Assembly: GCA_035461765.1 (NCBI GenBank)
Contig: DATHUY010000169.1
Coordinates: forward strand, 1 to 48,767
Source of the DNA: Longimicrobiales bacterium
Lineage (GTDB): Bacteria; Gemmatimonadota; Gemmatimonadetes; Longimicrobiales; RSA9
Length of the DNA: 48,767 bases
Direction: 5' to 3'
The notes under the pieces are model-generated. The model was not told the DNA's origin. It saw only the letters and a program-made list of their open reading frames with translations, and made no database searches. Below are positions 36,919 to 48,326 of this stretch, piece by piece. The position numbers and the translations under genes are program-made. Numbering within the stretch: position 1 is the first letter of the stretch; the number at the start of each line of letters is the position of its first letter.

Positions 36919-38721
36919 ATGAGGCAGTACATCCGACTGCTGAAGCAGCTGGCACCGTACAAGATGCTGCTGGTCGCGGCGCTGTTCGCCACGCTGATGT
37001 TCGCGGCGCTCGACACATTCAGCTTCGTCATGGTCTTCCCGTTCCTGCAGGCCCTCTTCGAGGGCGGCTCCGTGCAGCTGGATGGTGCGGGCGAGCGCAT
37101 CGAGGCGCTGCTCGAGAACACGATCGGCCGGCTGCTGGTCCCCGGCGCCGACCCGATGCAGGCGATCACGGCGCTGTGCATTGCCATCGCGATCGTGTTC
37201 CTGTTCAAGAACATCTTCGACTATCTGCGCCAGTATCTCGTGGTCCGACTCGAGCAGTCCGTGACGAGGGACCTGCGCAACATCGTCTACGGCCACCTGC
37301 TGGAGCTGGACCTCCGCTTCTATAATCGCACGCGCGCCGGCCAGATCATCAACCGCCTGACGAGCGATACGGATCTGCTGCGCACGATGGTGACGAAGAA
37401 CATCTCGACGTTCGTCACATCGGTGCTCCAGGTCGTGATCTCGATCTGGGTTCTGCTGGAGATTTCGTGGGAGCTCACGCTGCTCGCGCTGGTCGTGATG
37501 CCGATGACGTTCGGAATCTGGCGGCGCCTGCTCGCGCCGCTCCGGCGCGGCGACAGGCGGGTGCTGGAGCAGAGCGGCGAGGTGACCTCGCATCTGCAGG
37601 AGACGGTGTCCGGTGTCCGGCAGGTGAAGGCAGCAGCGGCGGAACGCTTCGAGTCGGTGCGCTTCCGCAACCTGACGGAGACATATTTCGGCAGCGTGGT
37701 CCGCACGGAGCGGATCCGCGCGCTCGCGAGCCCGCTGAGCGAGACCATGGGCGCGGTCGGCACGGTGCTCCTGCTCTGGTTCGGCGGGAGGATGGTCGTC
37801 GAGGGGCAGCTCACGGCCGGTGCCTTCATCGCATTCATCGCGATCAGCCTGAAGCTCTACCAGCCGGTGAAATGGCTGACGAAGTTCCCATCCATGGTAC
37901 AGCCGGGCCTGTCGGCGGCCGATAGGATCTTCGAGTTCCTCGACACACCGATCGAGATGGTCGACTCGCCGGGCGCGCGCCAGTTCGAGAGCGTGCGTGA
38001 TGCGATCCGTTTCGAGAATGTGTCATTCAGCTACACGTCCGACGCGCCGGTGCTGGCCGATGTATCGCTCACGGCGCGGCGCGGCACCGTGACGGCGCTC
38101 GTGGGGCCGAGCGGTGCGGGCAAGACGACGCTCGTCGATCTGGTGGCGCGCTTCTACGACCCGACCGGCGGCCGGATCACAATCGATGGCATCGACATCC
38201 GCGATTACAGCGTGAAGTCGCTACGCCGTCGCATGGGAGTGGTGACGCAGGAGACCGTGCTGTTCCACGACACCGTGCGCGCCAACATTGCCTATGCGCT
38301 GCCGGACGCTACACAGGACGGAGTCGAGCGCGCCGCACGCGCCGCGAACGCGCACGACTTCATCATGCAGATGCCGGACGGATACGACACGGTGCTCGGA
38401 GAACGCGGGACGCGCCTCTCGGGCGGGCAGCGCCAGCGCATTGCCATCGCACGCGCCATCCTGCGTGACCCGCCGATCCTGATCTTCGATGAGGCGACAT
38501 CGGCGCTCGACTCGGAATCGGAGAGGCTGGTGCAGGAGGCGATCGAGCACCTGCTCGAGGGCAGGACCGTGTTCGTGATCGCGCACCGACTGTCGACCAT
38601 ATTGAACGCCGACCAGATCGTGGCGATGGACGGCGGCAGAGTCGTGCAGCGCGGCACGCACGACGAGCTGCTCGCCGAAGGCGGGCTCTATCGCAAGCTG
38701 TACCGTCTCCAGCACCAGTGA
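36919..38721 (+). CDS. ABC transporter fusing membrane and ATPase domains (MsbA-type lipid A flippase)
   Basis: A 600-residue half-transporter. Six membrane helices occupy residues 1-310, followed by the ATPase: Walker A VGPSGAGKTTLVDL, the Q-loop GVVTQETVLFHDTVRANIAY, signature LSGGQRQRIAIARAIL, Walker B ILIFDEATSALDSESE and the switch His in VIAHRLSTI. It matches the MsbA/lipid exporter class that flips lipid A-core across the inner membrane. It starts 3 bp after the receiver-PglZ gene and precedes a GT9 gene and an acyltransferase, which supports a lipid A role. Confidence 0.92.
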   Translation: MRQYIRLLKQLAPYKMLLVAALFATLMFAALDTFSFVMVFPFLQALFEGGSVQLDGAGERIEALLENTIGRLLVPGADPMQAITALCIAIAIVFLFKNIFDYLRQYLVVRLEQSVTRDLRNIVYGHLLELDLRFYNRTRAGQIINRLTSDTDLLRTMVTKNISTFVTSVLQVVISIWVLLEISWELTLLALVVMPMTFGIWRRLLAPLRRGDRRVLEQSGEVTSHLQETVSGVRQVKAAAAERFESVRFRNLTETYFGSVVRTERIRALASPLSETMGAVGTVLLLWFGGRMVVEGQLTAGAFIAFIAISLKLYQPVKWLTKFPSMVQPGLSAADRIFEFLDTPIEMVDSPGARQFESVRDAIRFENVSFSYTSDAPVLADVSLTARRGTVTALVGPSGAGKTTLVDLVARFYDPTGGRITIDGIDIRDYSVKSLRRRMGVVTQETVLFHDTVRANIAYALPDATQDGVERAARAANAHDFIMQMPDGYDTVLGERGTRLSGGQRQRIAIARAILRDPPILIFDEATSALDSESERLVQEAIEHLLEGRTVFVIAHRLSTILNADQIVAMDGGRVVQRGTHDELLAEGGLYRKLYRLQHQ

Positions 38722-38722
38722 C

Positions 38723-39853
38723 ATGCCGGTGCGGATGATGGAAAGCATCGAGCGGGAGCCGCCGCGGCACATCTGCGTCGTGCTGCTGACCGGTCTGGGC
38801 GACGTGGTCCACGGGCTGCCGGTCGTCAACGCATTGCGGCGTGCGTGGCCGGACACGAACGTCACGTGGGTGGTCGAGCCGATGCCGGCGGGCATCCTCC
38901 AGCCTCACCCGTCGCTGGACCAGGTCATCGTCTACGAGAAGAAGCGCGGGGTGGCAGGCGTGCGCGACCTGCGACGACGCATGGCCCGTGAGCGGTTCGA
39001 TCTGGCCATCAACTTCAACATCTACTTCAAGAGCATCTTTCCGACGCTCTTTTCGCGTGCACCGGAGCGCTGGACGTTCGGGCGCGACCGTGCGCGCGAT
39101 GGCGTGTGGCTCGCCGGGAACCGGCACCTGCCCGCACGGCCGCGCCGACACACGCAGGACATGTTTCTGGAGTTCGTCGAGGTGCTCGGCGTGGATCCGT
39201 ACCCGCTCGAGTGGCGGCTCGAGATCACAGCGGCCGAGCGCGAGCAGCAGGCGCGGTTCGTCGATCAGCTTGGCGGACGGCGCGCGGTGGCGCTGGTACC
39301 GGCGTCGGCCAATGTGAAGAAGGACTGGCCCGCGGAACGGTATGTGGATGTCGTGGACGCCATCGAGATTGATCTGGGTGCACGCGCGGTACTGGTGGGC
39401 GGTCCCGGCGACCGCGAGGTCGAAGCGGCTCGTATCATCGAAGCCGAAGCATCGCAGCAACCGCTCTGGATGATGGGCGACGGCGTGCGCCGCCTGATCT
39501 GGATCCTGGATGCGTGTGCGGCGGCGGTCGCGCCCGATACGGGCCCGCTGCATATCGCGCGTGCGGTCGGCACGCCGGTCGTCGGTCTGTTCGGCCATAC
39601 GAACCCCTGGAGGGTGGGGCCGTACCGTGCATTCGAGGATCTGTGGATCGATGCGTACACGGAGCCGGGCGAAGGGCCGGACCCGTCGAATTTCACGCCG
39701 AAGCTGGGCCGCATGGAGACGATCGAGCCGCGCGCCGTGATCGAGAAGGTGGAGCGTGCGCTCCGATCGGAGCATGGCGCTGCTGCGGCGCTGGATCGGC
39801 CGCACGCTGGTAGATTGGATCGGATGCACGGCGGTGAGGGCGACGCGCGGTGA
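38723..39853 (+). CDS. GT9-family glycosyltransferase (heptosyltransferase-like), second copy
   Basis: A 376-residue protein, paralogous to the GT9 at 34282: HICVVLLTGLGDVVHGLPVV, TWVVEPMPAGIL, VALVPASANVKKDWPAERYV, VLVGGPGDREVEAAR and AAAVAPDTGPLHIARAV. Its C-terminus is about 25 residues longer (basic and His-rich). Having two GT9 genes suggests two successive core-sugar additions. It starts one base after the ABC gene's stop and overlaps the next gene (GTGA). Confidence 0.9.
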   Translation: MPVRMMESIEREPPRHICVVLLTGLGDVVHGLPVVNALRRAWPDTNVTWVVEPMPAGILQPHPSLDQVIVYEKKRGVAGVRDLRRRMARERFDLAINFNIYFKSIFPTLFSRAPERWTFGRDRARDGVWLAGNRHLPARPRRHTQDMFLEFVEVLGVDPYPLEWRLEITAAEREQQARFVDQLGGRRAVALVPASANVKKDWPAERYVDVVDAIEIDLGARAVLVGGPGDREVEAARIIEAEASQQPLWMMGDGVRRLIWILDACAAAVAPDTGPLHIARAVGTPVVGLFGHTNPWRVGPYRAFEDLWIDAYTEPGEGPDPSNFTPKLGRMETIEPRAVIEKVERALRSEHGAAAALDRPHAGRLDRMHGGEGDAR

Positions 39854-40806
39854 GGGACGAGACCGCTCGTGAACTGCTGGCGCGCGACCGCGTGCGCTTC
39901 CGCCATCGCGTGGAATACGCTGCGTTCCGTGCGGTGCTCGGCGGCAGCGAGCGCCTGAGCGATGAACGCGCGGCGGCGATGGGTGCGGCGCTCGGCCGAA
40001 TGGGATACCCGCTCGGCATCAAGCGCGATGTGGTGCACGCCAACCTGCGTATCGCGTTTCCGGACGCGGGCGCGGCATGGATCGAGCGGATCGCACGCGC
40101 CTCGTACGAGCATCTCGGTCGCGAGACCATGATGATGCTGCGGCTGGCGAGCATGTCGCGCGCGGATCTGATCGCGCGCACCCGCACTGTCAACGAGGCG
40201 GCCGCGCAGGCCGCGTTCGCGCGCGGCAAGGGCATCGTGGTGGTGGCCGGGCACCTGGGCAACTGGGAGATCGGCGCGGCGATGATGGCCGCGCGCGGCT
40301 ATGCGGTCGATGTCATCGCGAAGCGATCCGCCAATCCACTCTTCTATGAAAGGATACTGTCGGCGCGTGAACGGCTCGGTGTCGGCGTGATCGACTTCCA
40401 GCGGGCTACGCGGCAGGCGCTGCATGCACTGAGGTCCGGGCGCGCCGTTGCGTTCGCCGCGGACCAGCATGCCGGCCGTGCCGGCCTCTGGGTGCCGTTT
40501 TTCGGCAGGCTGGCGTCGACTTACCGCGGTCCGGCTCTCATGGCGCTGCGGACGGATGCGACCATGTTCCTGTCGATCCCGCTGCGGCTGGCGGACGGGA
40601 CGTACGAGATCACGCTCGAGCCGATCGAGGTGGAGCGGACCGGCGACATGGACGCCGACGTCCTGCGGCTGACGCGGGTATACACGCGGCGGCTGGAGGC
40701 GGCGGTCCGGGCGAATCCGGACCAGTACGTCTGGCAGCACCGCCGCTGGCGCGAGCCACCGCCCGGGATGCGGGTGGAGGAACCGGAGGCGCTGCCGGAG
40801 GTATGA
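39850..40806 (+). CDS. LpxL/HtrB-type lysophospholipid (lipid A) acyltransferase
   Basis: A 318-residue protein with GTG start overlapping the GT9 stop by 4 bp. It shows VVVAGHLGNWEIGAAMMAAR (the HxxxxE catalytic motif) and, later, AVAFAADQHAGRAGLWVPFF, typical of LpxL/HtrB. These enzymes add the secondary acyl chain to lipid A on the cytosolic face of the inner membrane. No clear membrane anchor is seen at its N-terminus. It is followed by an 86-bp gap with a candidate promoter. Confidence 0.9.
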   Translation: MRDETARELLARDRVRFRHRVEYAAFRAVLGGSERLSDERAAAMGAALGRMGYPLGIKRDVVHANLRIAFPDAGAAWIERIARASYEHLGRETMMMLRLASMSRADLIARTRTVNEAAAQAAFARGKGIVVVAGHLGNWEIGAAMMAARGYAVDVIAKRSANPLFYERILSARERLGVGVIDFQRATRQALHALRSGRAVAFAADQHAGRAGLWVPFFGRLASTYRGPALMALRTDATMFLSIPLRLADGTYEITLEPIEVERTGDMDADVLRLTRVYTRRLEAAVRANPDQYVWQHRRWREPPPGMRVEEPEALPEV

Positions 40807-40892: not shown

Positions 40893-42512
40893 TTGATTTA
40901 CATCTGCATACCCACACACAACGAGCAGCAGACGGTCGGCGTCGTTCTCTGGAAGATCAGGCAGGTGTTCGCGGATTTCCCGCGTGACTACCAGCTGCTG
41001 GTGGCGGACGACGGGTCTACGGACAAGACGCCGGAAGTACTCGAGCCGTACACGCGCGTGCTGCCGCTGACGGTGATCCGGAGCGAGACGCGACAGGGCA
41101 GCGCCGCGAGCCTGGAGATGCTGCTGCGCGAAGCGGTGCGACGATCCGAGTATCCGAAGCGCGATGCGATCGTGACGCTGCAGGCGGATTTCTCGGAGGA
41201 GCCTGACGACCTGGTGCCGCTGGTGAAGCGGCTGGAGGCGGGGGCCGATGTAGCGGTCGGCAACAAGGTCAGCACGTCGAAGGATACGCGGGCCCGGAAG
41301 TTCGCGCGTTCGCTCGCGAAGTTCTTCATGCGGCGGCAGAAGTGGCCGGAGGGCGTGATGACGCCGTTCGAGGGTTTCCGCGCCTATCGTCTGTATGCGG
41401 TGAAGCGGGCGATCGAGGAGCGTGGTGCAGCGCGCCTGGTGCGGCACGACGGCTGGGCTGGCCATGCGGAGCTTCTGCGCGCGGTGCAGCCACATGCCCG
41501 CCGCGTGGACGTGGTCGATGTCGACGACAGGCCCGACCGCCTGCAGCGTCCGCGGCGTGAGAAGCCGTTCGGCTCGGCGATGCAGGTCCGGATGATGGCC
41601 TCCGGCGCGGAGCCCCCGGGCCTGGTGGGTGTAGAAGAGCTGGACCGGATTGCACTGACGGCGAGTCGGAGCCGGGAGAGGGCGGCCATTACGCCGCAGA
41701 GCATTCAGGCACGCGGAGCGCCGTCACGCACGAACGGCTCGCGCACGCGCCAGTCCGGCGGCTCCCGACGCGATCAGAACGGGCGTGCCCGTGCGCAGGG
41801 GAACGGGGCCGGCCGCAGTCGCGCCGAAGCGGGCGAGACCCGCCCGCGCCGCGAGCGCCCGGCCCAGGCGGAGGGTCGCACGAAGCAGAAGAGCGACGAG
41901 GGCCGCGACCAGGCACGATCACGGCAGCCGGAGGGCAGGCGTCGTCAGCCGCGGGATCCGGTGGCTGCTGCGGCGCCGGAAGAGCAGGATGTGCGCGCGG
42001 AGCAGGCGGCGGAGGGCGCAGTAAGCCCGGACGCGGCCGCACCGCCGAAGCGGAAGCGCCGCCGCCGCAAGCGCGGCGGGCAGGGACGCTCCGGGGGCGC
42101 GCAGGATCAGAACGCAGCGCAGGACGGTCTGCCGGAGTCAGGCAGTAACGGCGAACCCGCTGGTGTACAGGGGTCCGGCTCCGAGGCGCGGGCCGGCAGC
42201 ACCGAGGGCGCCACGGAGGGTGACTCGACCGGTCCCGAGGGGGAGTCCTCGACCGGCCCGAAGAAGCGCCGTCGGCGCGGCGGCCGGCGGGGCGGCCGAG
42301 GTCGACGGAAGCCGCGTCCTGAGGGTGGCGTGGACGGGGAAGGCACCGGTGATGCAGGGACGGGCGGGAACGATGGCGAATCGCCCGATGCGTCGGACCG
42401 AGCCGCGACGGAACGTCCGTCCGCTGGCGCAGCGGACCGGCAGCGTGCCGAATCGGGAAGTGCGTCCGAGCGGTCGACTCCGGAGCCTGTCGCCCGCGCA
42501 GAGAACGACTGA
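40893..42512 (+). CDS. GT2 glycosyltransferase with long basic disordered tail
   Basis: A 539-residue protein with TTG start (TAAGGG 8 nt upstream). Residues 1 to about 230 are a GT-A family 2 domain: IYICIPTHNEQQTVGVVLWK, VADDGSTDKTPEVL (DDG motif), TLQADFSEEPDDLV and VGNKVSTSK. After about residue 240 it becomes low-complexity Arg/Gly/Glu/Ala/Pro-rich, with blocks such as PPKRKRRRRKRGGQGR and KKRRRRGGRRGGRGRRKPRP resembling the RNA-binding tails of RNase E. It lacks the C-terminal membrane helices of many GT2 dolichol-type enzymes. It probably makes a lipid-linked or LPS sugar; the tail's function is unknown. Confidence 0.85.
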   Translation: MIYICIPTHNEQQTVGVVLWKIRQVFADFPRDYQLLVADDGSTDKTPEVLEPYTRVLPLTVIRSETRQGSAASLEMLLREAVRRSEYPKRDAIVTLQADFSEEPDDLVPLVKRLEAGADVAVGNKVSTSKDTRARKFARSLAKFFMRRQKWPEGVMTPFEGFRAYRLYAVKRAIEERGAARLVRHDGWAGHAELLRAVQPHARRVDVVDVDDRPDRLQRPRREKPFGSAMQVRMMASGAEPPGLVGVEELDRIALTASRSRERAAITPQSIQARGAPSRTNGSRTRQSGGSRRDQNGRARAQGNGAGRSRAEAGETRPRRERPAQAEGRTKQKSDEGRDQARSRQPEGRRRQPRDPVAAAAPEEQDVRAEQAAEGAVSPDAAAPPKRKRRRRKRGGQGRSGGAQDQNAAQDGLPESGSNGEPAGVQGSGSEARAGSTEGATEGDSTGPEGESSTGPKKRRRRGGRRGGRGRRKPRPEGGVDGEGTGDAGTGGNDGESPDASDRAATERPSAGAADRQRAESGSASERSTPEPVARAEND

Positions 42513-42522
42513 AGGAGTGAGC

Positions 42523-43305
42523 ATGAGGATCATCGCAACCGCTCTGCTGCTGGCCGCCGTGGTGCCGGGAGTCGAAGCGCAGAACCACGCGTCGACGCCG
42601 GCGTCGCGGAATGCAGTTGCGCGGGTCCCGTTCGGCCCCGGCGAGCGCCTGGACTACCGCATCACGTACGGCATCCTCGGCAAGCGCGGTAACGCGTCGA
42701 CCGAGGTGGTCGGGGTCGAGGACATTCGCGGCCGCGAGTCGTACCATCTCAGCTTCCGCATGAAGGGTGGAGCGCTCGGCTGGAGCATGGACGACCTCCA
42801 GGAGTCGTGGCTCGACGTGCAGCGACTCTATGCCCATCGCTTCAAGCAGGTAATCAATCAGACGACGTACGATCGGCTGCGGACGCTGGACTTTTATCCG
42901 GCGGACGGCGTATGGCGGATGGTCGAGCAGGTCCGCGAGGGCGAGCTCGCGACGGAAATGCCACTCGACGACGTGTCGTTCCTCTACTGGGCGCGCACGC
43001 TGCCGTTCGAAGTCGGACAGACGTACGAGTTTCGGCGGTACTACAAGCCGGAGGGTAATCCCGTCGTGCTGAAGGTGCTGCGTCGGGAGCGTGTAAAAGT
43101 GCCCGCAGGCACGTTCGACACCGTGGTCGTGCAGCCGCTGATCCGCACTAGCGGGCTGTTCGGCGATGGCGGGCGGGCCGAGGTCTACTTCACCGATGAC
43201 GAGCGTCGCCTGATCGTGCTGATCAAGACGCGCATGTCGATCGGCACGATGCAGCTGCAACTGGAGAAGTACGCGCCGGGCGAGAAGCTCGCGGGCGCGA
43301 GGTGA
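42523..43305 (+). CDS. DUF3108-domain exported protein
   Basis: ATG 42523 has GAAGGAG 5 nt upstream and begins a signal peptide (MRIIATALLLAAVVPGVEAQ). The 260-residue product has the DUF3108 pattern: GERLDYRITYGILGKRGNAS, then a repeated two-layer beta sheet (LGWSMDDLQESWLDVQRLYA, RYYKPEGNPVVLKVLRRERV, GRAEVYFTDDERRLIVLIKT). DUF3108 is a periplasmic domain of unknown function, often near LPS and lipoprotein genes, possibly lipid-binding. It is 10 bp after the GT2 gene. Confidence 0.88.
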   Translation: MRIIATALLLAAVVPGVEAQNHASTPASRNAVARVPFGPGERLDYRITYGILGKRGNASTEVVGVEDIRGRESYHLSFRMKGGALGWSMDDLQESWLDVQRLYAHRFKQVINQTTYDRLRTLDFYPADGVWRMVEQVREGELATEMPLDDVSFLYWARTLPFEVGQTYEFRRYYKPEGNPVVLKVLRRERVKVPAGTFDTVVVQPLIRTSGLFGDGGRAEVYFTDDERRLIVLIKTRMSIGTMQLQLEKYAPGEKLAGAR

Positions 43306-43327
43306 TGTTGCAGAGCAGAGCACGAAC

Positions 43328-44293
43328 GTGAGCGACGGCATCGATCCGAGTAAGATCCGGACGGTGCCGTTGTCGCTTCGGCCGAACAAGGTCAGCGCGA
43401 CGGACTTCGCGCAGCCGCCCGGCGACCGTACCGATTTCGCCGCATTCCTGAGCTCACTCCCGCACATACTCGAGGCGCAGAGCTTCCTGGCCGTCGTCGA
43501 TGCACTCGTCGATGCGGCGCGACAGAAGCGGGGCGTCGTGTGCATGCTGGGCGGCCACGTCGTGAAGACCGGCCTCGCGCCCGTGTTGCTCGATCTCGCG
43601 CGGCGCGGCGTCATCACACACTTCGCGACGAACGGTTCTGCGGTAATCCACGACTATGAAGTCACCCGGTGGGGCGGCACGAGCGAGGACGTGGAGGCCG
43701 GGCTGAAGGATGGCAGCTTCGGTATGGCGGAGGAGACGGGTCGCGAGATGAACGAAGCGATCCGTCGCGGTCACGAGCGCGGCCTCGGCATGGCCGAGTC
43801 GCTCGCGATCGCGCTCGAGGACGCGCCCGAGCTTGCCAATCCCGAGCTCTCGCTGCTGCTGAACGCGCGCCGGCTCGGCGTCGGCTTTACGGCGCACGCA
43901 GCGATCGGTGCCGAGATCATCCATCAGCATCCCGCCGCCGACGGTGCGGCCATTGGCGCGACCAGCATGACCGATTTCCGACGTCTCGCCGGCCATCTGC
44001 CACGGCTCGAGGGTGGCGTCGTGCTGAACGTCGGCTCGGCCGTCATCATGCCCGAGGTCTTCCTCAAGGCACTCACCATCTCCCGCAACATTCACGACGG
44101 CGCGCCTCGTGCATTCACCGCGGCCGACTTCGATATGATCCGGCACTACCGGCCGCGTGTGAACGTGGTCGAGCGGCCCGTGCGGACGGGCGGCGGGAAG
44201 GGCTACCAGATCACGGGACATCACGAGATCATGGTGCCGCTCCTCGCGTGGAGTGTCGTTGCGCGGATGCAGGAAACGGGAGACAGCAGATGA
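43328..44293 (+). CDS. Deoxyhypusine synthase-like protein
   Basis: A 321-residue protein with GTG start. The core matches the DHS superfamily's NAD-binding Rossmann-type fold: GVVCMLGGHVVKTGLAPVLL, HFATNGSAVIHDYEVTRWGG, then AAIGATSMTDFRRLAGHLP and GSAVIMPEVFLKALTISRNI. In eukaryotes and archaea DHS modifies eIF5A; bacteria have no such substrate, and the few bacterial DHS-like enzymes characterised act on spermidine or other polyamines. The usual catalytic Lys region is not obviously conserved. It overlaps the start of uppP (ATGA), so its job may relate to envelope or isoprenoid metabolism. Reaction not known. Confidence 0.8.
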   Translation: MSDGIDPSKIRTVPLSLRPNKVSATDFAQPPGDRTDFAAFLSSLPHILEAQSFLAVVDALVDAARQKRGVVCMLGGHVVKTGLAPVLLDLARRGVITHFATNGSAVIHDYEVTRWGGTSEDVEAGLKDGSFGMAEETGREMNEAIRRGHERGLGMAESLAIALEDAPELANPELSLLLNARRLGVGFTAHAAIGAEIIHQHPAADGAAIGATSMTDFRRLAGHLPRLEGGVVLNVGSAVIMPEVFLKALTISRNIHDGAPRAFTAADFDMIRHYRPRVNVVERPVRTGGGKGYQITGHHEIMVPLLAWSVVARMQETGDSR

Positions 44294-45219
44294 GCTGGTG
44301 GGAAGCGGCGGTGCTCGGGGTGATTCAGGGGCTCACGGAATTCTTTCCGGTGTCGAGCTCCGGTCACCTCGTCATGGGGGGTGCAGTGCTGGGTCTGGAA
44401 ATACCCGGTATCCTGTTCGAAGTCGCCGTGCACGTCGCGACACTCGTGTCGGTGCTGTTCGTCTACCGTCTGCGCATCTGGACGCTGATCCGCGGATGCT
44501 GCGGGCTGGAGGAAGAGAGCACGTGGCCTTACGTGATGAAGCTGGTGCTTGCGACGATACCCGCCGCAATCGTCGGCTTCACACTCGAGGACTGGTTCGA
44601 AGCGCGCTTCGACGATCCGGTGTTCGCGGGGACCATGATCCTCGTCACGGGCAGCTTCGTGTGGAGCAGCCGCTGGGTGCGCGCCGATGCACGTCGTCCC
44701 TTTCCGCTCGACTGGATGCCGATACTCGTGGCCGCAGCGATATCGCTGCTGGCGGGGACCATCGTGCCGTTCCTCGCGGTGCTCGCCGTCGAGGGGACGA
44801 TCATGGCCGTGTCGCGCGTGACTGCGTCAACAGAATGGCGGCAGGAACCGACGTGGGGCGGCGCTCTGCTGATGGGCATTGCGCAGTCGGTCGCAATACT
44901 GCCCGGCATCTCGCGCTCGGGCAGTACGGTCCTCACAGGCATGTGGCGGCGCATAGATCCCGTCGCCGCGGCGGAGTTCTCGTTCCTGATGTCGATCCCG
45001 GCGATCCTGGGCGCGGCCGTGCTCAAGGTGCCGGACATCGGCACGGAAGGGATGGGCGTGGGCGTGGTGCCACTGCTGGTCGGCGGGATCGCGGCGGGCG
45101 TTGCCGGCATCCTCGCGATCAGTCTCTTCGTGGCACTGCTCAAACGCCAGAACTTCTACACGTTCGCGTACTACTGCTGGGCTGTGGGCGCCTTGTTCCT
45201 GCTCTACATGCGGCAGTGA
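44290..45219 (+). CDS. uppP: Undecaprenyl-diphosphatase
   Basis: Start is ATG 44290, overlapping the previous stop by 4 bp; the longer frame upstream is out of context. The 309-residue product has eight or so membrane helices and both UppP/BacA signature sequences: GLTEFFPVSSSGHLVMGGAV (the Glu-rich first motif) and ILPGISRSGSTVLTGM (PGxSRSG). It dephosphorylates undecaprenyl diphosphate to recycle the lipid carrier of peptidoglycan and LPS O-antigen synthesis. This fits the surrounding lipid A/core genes. Confidence 0.95.
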   Translation: MSWWEAAVLGVIQGLTEFFPVSSSGHLVMGGAVLGLEIPGILFEVAVHVATLVSVLFVYRLRIWTLIRGCCGLEEESTWPYVMKLVLATIPAAIVGFTLEDWFEARFDDPVFAGTMILVTGSFVWSSRWVRADARRPFPLDWMPILVAAAISLLAGTIVPFLAVLAVEGTIMAVSRVTASTEWRQEPTWGGALLMGIAQSVAILPGISRSGSTVLTGMWRRIDPVAAAEFSFLMSIPAILGAAVLKVPDIGTEGMGVGVVPLLVGGIAAGVAGILAISLFVALLKRQNFYTFAYYCWAVGALFLLYMRQ

Positions 45220-45237
45220 GGCAAAGGCGGGTGCGGC

Positions 45238-47784
45238 TCAGTCCCTGCCCGCGAACACCGATCGTGATGTCGGCAGCGGAATGCGCAGCAGCTGGCGGTA
45301 TGTGAGGTCGAGCGCGAACAGAAATCCGTCGTCCACGGCCAGACCGTAGAAGCGAGCGCCCGGGCTCCAGTAGACGACCTCGCTCGTGCCATCCGGATCG
45401 ATGCGCAGGATGCGCCCCTGGCCGCCGCGCTCGGCGGCGAGCACTGCACCGGACGGCGTCGTGGCAACAGCGACGAGTCTGCCCGGACCGAAACCTGTCG
45501 GGATCACTCTGCGATCGCCGTCCGCCGACACCCGCAGCACATCGCCGCCGTACGTCGCAGCGAACACGTTGCCATAATCGTCCGACGCGATCTGGTAGAT
45601 GTTGTAGCCGACGTTCATCCACTCGTGCACGGTACCGTCGCGCTGCACGTGACTGATCGTGCCATTCCATTCCGCGACCGCAATGCTGCCATCGGGCAGC
45701 ACGGCAGCGCCGTATGCAGGGTCTTCGCCAATACGTGATGCAATGATCTGCGCCGCGCCATCCCCGCGGAGTGCGTACAGGTAATTGCCGTCGCGCGCGC
45801 GTGCGAGCACGAACGTGGCACCATCGCGCTGATCGACGATGGGCGCATAGAGTGCGTCCGCGGCGAGGCGCGCGAGCGTCTGCGGATGCGATGAGCCTTC
45901 CGACTGCGAGAGCACGCGCGGTCGCGGCCGCAGCCCGAGCTGGTCCCAGCCGTAGCTCGCCTGAAGGATCCGCCCGTTGTTCACCGCGACGCCCCAGCTC
46001 CAGGGCAGCTCGGTGGCAATGATCTGACCGACACCTGGCGCAGCCACGTAGAAGCTGACGATCACGCGGGCTAGAGTGTTGCGGCCTGCGTCGCGGATGT
46101 CGATTGTCTCGGTATAGGTACCGGCGACGAGACCATCGGGATCGGCAGTGACCACGAGCGCATCGTCATCGCGCTGCATCTCGAGCCAGCCGGCAGTGGC
46201 GACGGGCGTCCAGTCGACCGCGTCGGCAGTGGGCCGTACACTGATGCGCTGATGCACGGGACTGCTGCCCGCGAGCGCAGTGATGCGGAGTACTTCGGGC
46301 GATGCGACGAGCGCGCGGTGATGAACACCCGTGGCGAGGCTCGCTGTCAGTATCTGGTCTTCGACCGTGATGTCCGTGAGGCGCACGCCGCCGGCCAGAG
46401 GTGTGGTGAATGCCTTCCTGCCGGTACGGCCCGGGTATGTATCGCCCGAATCAGCGCGACGTCCGCGCGCGAGATCGCCCTCGCCGTCCGCCTCGAGGAT
46501 GCCGACCGCCGAGCGCCGCTCGTCGCTGTTCCACGCGCCGAGCTCTGCGCGCTCCGGATCGATGCTCCACACGAGGAGCCCCTCGCCCGCGAGGAACTGG
46601 TCAGAGCCGATGCGCTGACGGTTCTCGAGCAACAGGTACTCGCTGCCGCTGCCCTGCACCCGATAGACCGTTCGGCTCTCCTGCACGGGCGGCAGGGTGA
46701 TCGCCGAATCTGCGCCGGTCACCGACTCGACGGTGACCCAGCCCAGCTGCTCCTTCTCCCACGCGCCGGGATGCGCCGGGGAGTGCTCGGTGGCGTGGCT
46801 GCCGGTGCCCATGAGGCCCCATGCGCCGATCCCCTGCGATGAGCCGTCGTAGTCGTAGAGGTCGGGCAGACCGAGCGCGTGACCGGTCTCGTGCGCGAGC
46901 ACACCAATGCGCATCGGGCCGCACGTCGTCGGATCCAGCACCGGCAGCACCACGTAGTCCGCAATCCGGATCGGCTCACCGCTCGCGCCGATCGACTGCG
47001 TCGTGAACGGCGGCATCGCGGCGCGATGCGGCCAGATGCCGCCCGCGCGGCCGTCACCGGGGCACGTGACAGCGTACACAATCGCGACGAAATCCACGAA
47101 GCCGTCGTCGTCGCCCGAGTTCGGCACGCCGTCGGGGCCGTCGTTGTCGAACTGCGCGAAGTCGAGCCGGCCCAGCGTGGCGGTGAGAGCCTCCTGACGC
47201 AGCTCGTTGATGCGGCCGAAGCTCGACCAGGCGTGCTCCTCAGACGACAGGTAATGACGCGCCGGCTTCGACAACGTCACCCACGGCGCCACCGCGCCGT
47301 CCGCCTGCAGCAGACCGCCGGAAACCTCCGTCCAGTAATCGGAAAACGAAACCGTATCGCCGCGGGACTCACCGAACAGACGTCGATCGAGATCCTGCAC
47401 ATGGAAGGGAATGGCGACGTCCGAGTAATGGACGGGAATCACGGGGATACGAAGACGGCCGCTCAGCGCGGCGCCCTGCTCCGCAAGTGTTTCGGGGGCT
47501 ACACCGTAGAGCCGCCCCTCCGCCGCCAGCTGGTCACGGCGCACGCGTACGGACTCCACCTTGCCGAGCCAAGCGCGGCTCAGCTCCAGTGGCATGAACG
47601 GGCGGGCATCATCCAGACCGATGATCGAGACCGGCGGCGTGGCGCTGCCACTCCAGGGTGCCGGTCTGCGCTGCGGCTGCTGTGCTGCGGCCCGGGTGCT
47701 CTCCAGTGTGAGCAGGAACGCGGGAACCAGGGACAGATACAGTAGGCTCCGGCAGCGTCCGAACTCGAAAGTCGGTCGGCGGAT
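45238..47784 (-). CDS. Secreted M6-family metalloprotease with beta-propeller C-terminus
   Basis: The first canonical start in frame is ATG 47595, but that omits a good signal peptide. Extending upstream, the frame stays open to an ATC at 47784, 6 nt after AAGGAG, giving MRRPTFEF then a hydrophobic core (SLLYLSLVPAFLLTL) and STRAAA-QQ cleavage. From there the product is 848 residues. The M6 zinc site is VLAHETGHALGLPDLYDYDG (HExxHxxGxxD). A BACON-like beta-sandwich (WLEMQRDDDALVVTADPDGL, GTYTETIDI) follows, then about 230 residues of repeats such as PDGSIAVAEWNGTISHVQRD and GNVFAATYGGDVLRVSADGD, an NHL-like beta-propeller. It is probably a secreted protease. Confidence 0.88.
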   Translation of the reverse strand: MRRPTFEFGRCRSLLYLSLVPAFLLTLESTRAAAQQPQRRPAPWSGSATPPVSIIGLDDARPFMPLELSRAWLGKVESVRVRRDQLAAEGRLYGVAPETLAEQGAALSGRLRIPVIPVHYSDVAIPFHVQDLDRRLFGESRGDTVSFSDYWTEVSGGLLQADGAVAPWVTLSKPARHYLSSEEHAWSSFGRINELRQEALTATLGRLDFAQFDNDGPDGVPNSGDDDGFVDFVAIVYAVTCPGDGRAGGIWPHRAAMPPFTTQSIGASGEPIRIADYVVLPVLDPTTCGPMRIGVLAHETGHALGLPDLYDYDGSSQGIGAWGLMGTGSHATEHSPAHPGAWEKEQLGWVTVESVTGADSAITLPPVQESRTVYRVQGSGSEYLLLENRQRIGSDQFLAGEGLLVWSIDPERAELGAWNSDERRSAVGILEADGEGDLARGRRADSGDTYPGRTGRKAFTTPLAGGVRLTDITVEDQILTASLATGVHHRALVASPEVLRITALAGSSPVHQRISVRPTADAVDWTPVATAGWLEMQRDDDALVVTADPDGLVAGTYTETIDIRDAGRNTLARVIVSFYVAAPGVGQIIATELPWSWGVAVNNGRILQASYGWDQLGLRPRPRVLSQSEGSSHPQTLARLAADALYAPIVDQRDGATFVLARARDGNYLYALRGDGAAQIIASRIGEDPAYGAAVLPDGSIAVAEWNGTISHVQRDGTVHEWMNVGYNIYQIASDDYGNVFAATYGGDVLRVSADGDRRVIPTGFGPGRLVAVATTPSGAVLAAERGGQGRILRIDPDGTSEVVYWSPGARFYGLAVDDGFLFALDLTYRQLLRIPLPTSRSVFAGRD

Positions 47785-48101
47785 GGCTCGCTCCTTCGCG
47801 GCCAGCCCGGACAGCGGCGTGGATGCCGGATTCGTCCGGGAACGTTCGTGTTGTGGAAACGAGGGTTGGATACGCCTGAAGACGTATACAATAGATGGGC
47901 CGAAACGCGTGCAGCGTCAAGTAGTGGGAGCGCAAGCAGATAGCCGTGGTACGTGTCGCGCGTACACCACGGGAGTGCACTCGCGGCGATGCGGCCGCGC
48001 AACGAACGGCGTGCGTCCGGCGGGTTGGGGTCCGGGGCTTGACCCGACCTGCCGTATTGGTAGATTTAACGGCTCGCCGGAGGTACTCGGTGAGTGTCTT
48101 G
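47785..48101. other. 317-bp intergenic region between the M6 protease and tRNA genes
   Basis: No supported gene. It holds the ribosome site of the M6 gene (AAGGAG on the minus strand at 47791-47796), an imperfect hairpin with arms CCGTGG and CCACGG (47944-47972) of unknown role, and the tRNA promoter at its right end. The two transcription units run in opposite directions, so promoters for both must lie here. Confidence 0.6.
48039..48066 (+). promoter_or_regulatory. Promoter of the tRNA-Glu/tRNA-Val unit
   Basis: TTGACC (48039-48044) and TAGATT (48061-48066) are sigma-70-like boxes 16 bp apart, ending 35 nt before tRNA-Glu. The run GCCGTATTGG between them is GC-rich. It is the best-matching promoter I can see in the window. 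Confidence 0.6.
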
Positions 48102-48174
48102 GCCCCCATCGTCTAGTGGCCCAGGACGTCGCGTTCTCAGCGCGAAAACCGGGGTTCGATTCCCCGTGGGGGTA
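48102..48174 (+). tRNA. tRNA-Glu (anticodon CTC)
   Basis: A 73-nt cloverleaf: acceptor GCCCCCA pairs with TGGGGGT (first pair G-U), D-arm TCGTCTAGTGGCCCAGGA, anticodon stem TCGCG/CGCGA around loop TTCTCAG (anticodon CTC), T-arm CGGGG TTCGATT CCCCG, and discriminator A. The CCA end is not encoded. The body matches bacterial tRNA-Glu closely (TCGTCTAG, GGCCCAGGAC). Confidence 0.95.
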
Positions 48175-48207
48175 TTTCTGGAAGGGGAGTGAGGTGCGCT
48201 CTCCGTC

Positions 48208-48281
<74 letters not shown>

Positions 48282-48283
48282 TG

Positions 48284-48326
48284 AACGCCGTCAGCCGTTG
48301 TCCGCCAACGACTTACGGCGTTTTTG
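48284..48326 (+). terminator. Intrinsic terminator of the tRNA unit
   Basis: AACGCCGT (48284-48291) pairs with ACGGCGTT (48315-48322); inside it CGTTG pairs with CAACG. A TTTTT tract (48321-48325) follows directly, so it looks like a true intrinsic terminator, starting 2 nt after tRNA-Val. The 260 bp from here to the PadR gene have no other supported gene. Confidence 0.85.

Follow-up and report, generated by a model that had tools for sequence, protein, structure and literature searches.

What does a bacterial GT2 glycosyltransferase do with some 300 residues of Arg-rich sequence behind its catalytic domain? The question is raised by one gene in a stretch of 48,767 nucleotides from a Longimicrobiales bacterium (assembly GCA_035461765.1, contig DATHUY010000169.1), here called the window. 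The gene, at 40893-42512 on the forward strand, is a single open frame without an internal stop; it starts with TTG and encodes a product of 539 residues. Residues 4-171 match Pfam Glycos_transf_2 (PF00535, 8.3e-22) with 78.3 bits, above the gathering score of 23.3, and beyond this GT2 domain the Pfam search of the window protein gave no other domain. The AlphaFold2 model has a mean pLDDT of 85-98 per ten-residue block through residue 260 (90 at residues 251-260), 69 at residues 261-270, and 42-57 thereafter. Of the 132 GT2 rows listed, 96 were used for structure prediction, as were 80 of the 121 rows for the DUF3108 protein described below; near-duplicates and poor rows had been dropped by eye. 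The features of the gene, with C25 and G001 denoting two related sequences introduced below, are:

40893..41603, forward strand: GT2 (GT-A fold) catalytic domain, residues 1-237, from PF00535, the AlphaFold2 model and Foldseek.
41631..41690, forward strand: predicted helix linking the GT domain to the disordered tail, residues 247-266, from the AlphaFold2 model.
41691..42509, forward strand: disordered Arg/Gly/Ala-rich polyampholyte tail, residues 267-539, from pLDDT, composition and dN/dS.
42042..42098, forward strand: basic block 1, PPKRKRRRRKRGGQGRSGG, residues 384-402, conserved in C25, with its core in G001.
42255..42329, forward strand: basic block 2, GPKKRRRRGGRRGGRGRRKPRPEGG, residues 455-479, conserved in C25.

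The initial annotation had proposed a continuous frame running from GT2 into about 300 mostly disordered residues, at 41610-42512. The open frame, the composition and the pLDDT values bear this out for a tail rich in Arg, Gly and Ala, and the coordinates correspond to residue 240 through the stop. The 294 residues after position 245 include 51 R, 47 G and 43 A, 59 K+R and 45 D+E, and only 13 hydrophobic or aromatic residues (VILMFYW). The net charge over residues 244-539 is small (+14), as in a polyampholyte, so the word cationic fits the two blocks and not the whole tail. Runs of at least three K/R are RRR at 349, KRKRRRRKR at 386, KKRRRR at 457 and RRK at 471. The basic blocks had been described as repeated. 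Two strong blocks are indeed present, but RGGRRGG and GRGRR occur once each, both within block 2, and do not recur along the tail. The densest 20-residue stretch holds 13 K/R; shuffling the same tail 2000 times gave this number once (mean 8.4), so the clustering is above chance. The window protein has no hydrophobic segment after residue 235 (best 18-residue mean 0.4), and so no transmembrane (TM) helix there.

Two sequences led us to reject an assembly error or a wrong frame as the source of the tail. One is contig C25 of the same assembly (G000:C25; L150), possibly a co-binned strain or a second copy, whose start falls within the tail and which matches window positions 41846-48323 at 88.5% identity; the assembly has an estimated contamination of 4.86% and completeness of 99%. 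The other is a genome of the same genus, G001, whose gene is split across two contigs with ends sharing an exact 127-base overlap. Its pieces were compared separately and unjoined: L004 is cut at the contig end, and its two blocks are read on the other contig. The frame of the tail survives indels in both C25 and G001 with dN/dS below 1, which supports one continuous protein of GT2 and tail over a sequencing error. The tail is real coding sequence with conserved blocks.

The strength of constraint was measured by the Nei-Gojobori method. The C25 comparison, which spans tail residues 319-539, carries the weight because dS against G001 comes close to saturation or exceeds it in the tail (1.9) and in its linkers (2.6). 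Against C25, dN/dS is 0.30 for this whole tail region, 0.35 for the linkers and 0.25 for the DUF3108 gene that follows, thus the tail as a whole is constrained about as much as its neighbour. Block 2 stands out, with 24 of 25 residues identical, pS 0.37 and dN/dS 0.04. Block 1 keeps 18 of 19 residues, and its dN/dS of 0.19 is weak since it comes from 19 codons with few changes; its core, KRKRRRRKRGGQ, is also present in G001. Against G001, the GT domain gives a dN/dS of 0.11, and the blocks are 88% identical with a dN/dS of 0.09, under the same limit on dS, compared with 41% identity in the linkers. In the G001 tail (L151 1-705), block 2 is followed, before the C-terminus, by a short series of VNGEG-type repeats, a sign of fast linker change.

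How widespread is this arrangement? A profile built from 19 orthologs, with a match threshold of E 1e-25 or better, found the gene in 135 of the 146 genomes drawn from the order and in 192 of the 200 drawn from the phylum. We sorted 172 rows by rule into C-terminal forms: 122 short, 25 GT2-DUF3108 fusion, 19 tail, 5 intermediate and 1 unclassified, the last ending at a contig end. These rows include 40 hand-picked genomes outside the order, about half of them picked for long open frames; G056, a split match, was left out, and the tree omits L148 and L149. The short forms stop within about 25 residues of position 245 without any tail. Orthologs ending near residue 240, with a separate start for the tail, had been named as the finding that would speak against a fused tail; half of this applies, as 122 of 172 rows do end near there, but these rows simply lack a tail. 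Since 122 of 172 rows are tail-less, the tail is not needed for the basic reaction. It is a lineage-specific form of a phylum-wide gene.

Under a stricter definition, which asks for 9 or more K/R in a 20-residue stretch beyond position 245, 17 rows have a dense basic block; for 3 of them, over 5% of the shuffles match this (698, 161 and 101 of 2000). Tails, including the K/R-dense ones, fall in family groups f1, f3, f5 and f6, and fusions in f1, f2 and f4. On a quick tree (FastTree) the tail requires 11 state changes, gains and losses not being told apart, compared with a mean of 18.3 and a minimum of 15 in 200 label shuffles; the fusion requires 8, compared with a mean of 23.6 and a minimum of 19. 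The disordered Arg-block tail may have arisen more than once. Tail carriers have a GC3 of 0.918 vs. 0.801 in short forms (p = 2.5e-8, relatedness ignored). High GC3 favours drift toward Arg, Gly and Ala, and drift is therefore a live rival explanation. A contig search with the GT domain gave two loci, one in a same-genus MAG and one a Lachnospiraceae GT2 of 26% identity that was dropped. No relatives of the GT domain were found in the viral contigs searched.

The tail had also been called RNase E-like. The C-terminal region of RNase E is disordered and Arg-rich, and the resemblance of the window tail to it is one of composition. The name was not supported by a search for RNase E/G (PF10150), which found no match in the window's own genome, rated 99% complete, and was positive in 6 of 14 controls. 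When a 44-residue stretch containing block 2 was searched against the genome, it matched significantly only the GT2 gene itself and the C25 copy; the other 6 of 8 matches had E values of at least 0.3. A module shared with other proteins of the genome was rejected on this basis for the block 2 stretch.

The predicted structure of the GT domain is nearest to that of enzymes with a membrane anchor beyond this domain. In the Foldseek search with the GT2 model, rows 1-25 consist of GtrB, ArnC and DPMS structures only (E 7.1e-13 to 2.6e-10), and the profile search gave ArnC at 1.7e-17 and DPMS at 8.6e-17. The Gemmatimonadota family retains this fold and the juxtamembrane-like helices. The D-rich motifs are well kept: D44 and D99 are invariant over the 172 rows, D40 is present in 170 and D39 in 156. 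Like GtrB (Synechocystis sll0501), ArnC and PfDPMS, the window GT2 has a GT-A fold, the catalytic motifs and two juxtamembrane-like helices: the model helices at residues 133-146 and 225-237 resemble, and may be the counterparts of, the two juxtamembrane helices of GtrB and DPMS. In GtrB the second of these extends into TM1 (PMC4728340), and the C-terminus of the window GT2 domain would fall where that TM1 begins. DPMS types vary in how the catalytic domain is anchored: the yeast enzyme is held by one TM helix at its C-terminus, and human DPM1, the catalytic subunit of type II DPMS, has none and relies on membrane partners (PMC5526996). Human DPM1 resembles the window GT2 in its TM-less catalytic domain, which in DPM1 acts at a membrane with the partner subunits DPM2 and DPM3.

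The window GT2 differs from GtrB, ArnC and PfDPMS in its long disordered tail, in the lack of a hydrophobic segment after the domain, and at two residues. The acceptor-phosphate Arg is R122 of GtrB (PMC4728340) and R117 of PfDPMS (PMC5526996). At the position that we read as equivalent, aligned position 125, the window has Lys, and no more than 18 of 172 rows have Arg; an acceptor other than polyprenyl phosphate is therefore conceivable. Aligned position 136, which we read as the counterpart of R131, a second acceptor-phosphate Arg in the first interface helix of PfDPMS, is Lys in the window and is Arg (149) or Lys (14) in 163 of 172 rows. At residue 157 (41361-41363), which precedes the SGFR-type motif, the window and G001 carry Thr, whereas 159 of 172 rows have Asp, and this position aligns with Asp in ArnC and PfDPMS. 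It would correspond to the putative catalytic D157 of GtrB, the printed GtrB alignment ending before this point. Thr157 and Lys125 suggest that the acceptor or the mechanism may differ from that of GtrB and DPMS. By its modelled structure the window GT2 probably works like GtrB, ArnC and DPMS, but we do not class it with the polyisoprenyl-phosphate glycosyltransferases because the acceptor Arg is not kept and Thr replaces Asp. The amphipathic moment of the second helix is low in the window (0.44) and in G001 (0.40), whereas means of 0.71-0.76 mark this segment as amphipathic in every C-terminal class. A tail that makes up for a weakened amphipathic helix was rejected at the level of the family, as tail and short forms do not differ in moment (Mann-Whitney p = 0.27) or in aromatics (p = 0.67).

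The neighbouring genes place the enzyme among envelope functions. The order in the window is ABC exporter, GT9, LpxL-like, GT2 and DUF3108, with the following features around the GT2 gene:

36919..38721, forward strand: ABC exporter gene (PF00664 and PF00005), which we take to be MsbA-like.
38723..39853, forward strand: GT9 heptosyltransferase-like gene (PF01075, 1.3e-30).
39850..40806, forward strand: LpxL-like lipid A acyltransferase gene, the upstream neighbour (PF03279, 1.1e-46).
42523..43305, forward strand: DUF3108 gene, with a signal-peptide-like start (by eye) and a beta-rich domain (PF11306, 8.4e-30).
43328-44293: GSU2086-family protein gene, after DUF3108 (NCBIfam, 1.8e-113), followed by a frame that is presumably UppP-like.

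The LpxL-like gene is present in 17 of 19 order loci. The glycan pathway would be one of envelope assembly, probably of LPS.

More interesting than the tail itself is the conserved pairing of GT2 with DUF3108 and the repeated fusion of the two. In the window the DUF3108 gene, which scores 104.6 bits with PF11306 (above the gathering score of 26), starts 10 bases past the GT2 stop. Among 134 order rows, DUF3108 lies within 300 bases downstream of GT2 in 109 and is fused to it in 12; one row has it at about 1.1 kb, 5 have at most 110 bases of sequence left, and 7 have at least 1.4 kb downstream without it. The spacing in the 109 rows therefore leaves little room for a separate tail gene. Among the 40 genomes picked by hand from beyond the order, DUF3108 was adjacent in 24, fused in 13 and absent in 3, and the 13 fusions in this hand-picked set are not a frequency. 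The in-frame fusions include L010, L021, L062, L096, L143, L182 and L185, and both Pfam domains were present in all 7 of the fusions scanned. In 22 of the 25 fusions, an 18-residue hydropathy of at least 1.5 is reached between the two domains. The hydrophobic run often has basic residues before it and an AQ-type, cleavage-site-like end (by eye), so that the linker resembles a DUF3108 signal peptide translated in continuation of the GT2 frame. Internal DUF3108 starts may exist within the fused frames. The recurrent fusion suggests that the C-terminus of GT2 can sit at a membrane-crossing segment. No fusion with a glycosyltransferase is described in the available parts of the literature on DUF3108, and no title on the window GT2 protein came up in the literature searched on the tails of glycosyltransferases, the anchoring of DPMS or the LPS of Gemmatimonadota. 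Elsewhere in the genome, at G000:C136:27775-28158, lies a further match to DUF3108, the third, which is partial and scores 34.2 bits, over the cut-off.

The AlphaFold2 model of the DUF3108 protein (pLDDT 88.8) is a beta-rich fold. Its best PDB match is EipB/DUF1849 (6ntr, Z 15.7 over 205 residues, identity 15%), followed by the axonemal protein 9fqr_Xh (Z 15.3), VioE (up to 9.6) and 3fzx (Z 9.1); LolA (Z up to 8.7), DUF1089 and YmcC-like proteins are also among the weaker matches. With EipB, YmcC-like proteins and LolA/LolB it shares the beta-rich fold, and because the axonemal protein scores nearly as high as EipB, the fold alone assigns no function. A sequence search of DUF3108 against known structures gave one chance-level match (E 0.74). 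EipB is periplasmic and affects envelope integrity (PMC10787603), and PMC4364669 calls DUF3108 proteins outer-membrane beta-barrels with the YmcC fold, so that the DUF3108 protein may be either periplasmic or outer-membrane.

Our preferred reading, to which we give a probability of about 0.4, is that the window protein is a peripheral inner-membrane glycosyltransferase, of GtrB/ArnC/DPMS type in structure, acting at a step of LPS or other lipid-linked glycan synthesis, and that its tail is an accessory electrostatic tether. GT2 would form a functional pair with the exported product of the DUF3108 gene that follows, and its C-terminus would face the inner membrane. In short forms the amphipathic juxtamembrane helix alone would stand at the membrane end; in fusions the helix would be joined to a signal-anchor-like segment leading into DUF3108; in the window form it would be joined to the long disordered tail, whose Arg blocks would touch anionic phospholipid headgroups. 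That the tail could tether the enzyme to membranes had been suggested in the initial annotation. This is partly supported, as to position, by the anchored structural relatives and the 25 fusions, 22 of them with a clearly hydrophobic stretch; the location of GT2 at the membrane, the contact of the Arg blocks with lipid and the glycan pathway are what we infer. The tether idea is plausible, and an accessory hold on the anionic membrane would be the simplest reading of the tail. The tail-less majority, the lack of a difference in helix moment, the high GC3 and the small net charge count against it.

The tail could instead be an RGG-type tail binding RNA or the ribosome, keeping the enzyme or the operon mRNA near the site where the DUF3108 signal peptide is translated and secreted. 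Block 2 (RRRRGGRRGGRGRR) resembles RGG-type RNA-binding tails, and the 10-base spacing means that GT2 and DUF3108 may be translationally coupled. This reading appears unlikely to us, as no RNase E/G was found in the genome, the block 2 stretch has no other significant match, Pfam finds the GT2 domain alone, and the neighbours named by Pfam are envelope genes. We judge it about as unlikely that the tail is mostly GC-driven, low-complexity accretion tolerated at a free C-terminus under weak compositional constraint. The higher GC3 of tail carriers, the fast-diverging linkers with their length changes (41% identity to G001) and the many rows without a tail would fit such accretion, but the low dN/dS of block 2 at substantial pS, the value for the whole tail close to that of DUF3108, the dense tails of four family groups (3 of the 17 rows being weak against shuffles) and the K/R clustering equalled by 1 in 2000 shuffles do not. 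Least probable to our minds is that the blocks capture an anionic substrate or partner and concentrate it near the active site, perhaps in a condensate; candidates would be lipid A phosphates, polyprenyl phosphate, polyphosphate or a pathway enzyme. A polyampholyte tail with spaced basic blocks in a neighbourhood of lipid A/LPS-type enzymes could serve in this way, but the short-tailed orthologs manage without it.

The electrostatic tether may be part of a broader scheme, which we regard as quite improbable in its full form. Gemmatimonadota would have a near-universal two-sided envelope machine, in which a glycosyltransferase facing the lipid from the cytosol and a DUF3108 protein, EipB/LolA-like and exported, form one unit across the inner membrane. 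The two halves would be coupled by the operon only, by the signal-anchor fusion, or by the Arg-block tail as a non-covalent tether at the site of DUF3108 secretion. If our preferred reading holds, one enzyme family would offer three natural ways to place a soluble glycosyltransferase at the membrane, a disordered Arg-block tail among them. The uncharacterised DUF3108 family would gain a partner, a sugar transferase that adjoins it in an LPS-type cluster and is fused to it in separate lineages, and the role of DUF3108 would thereby become testable by deletion in cultured Gemmatimonas.
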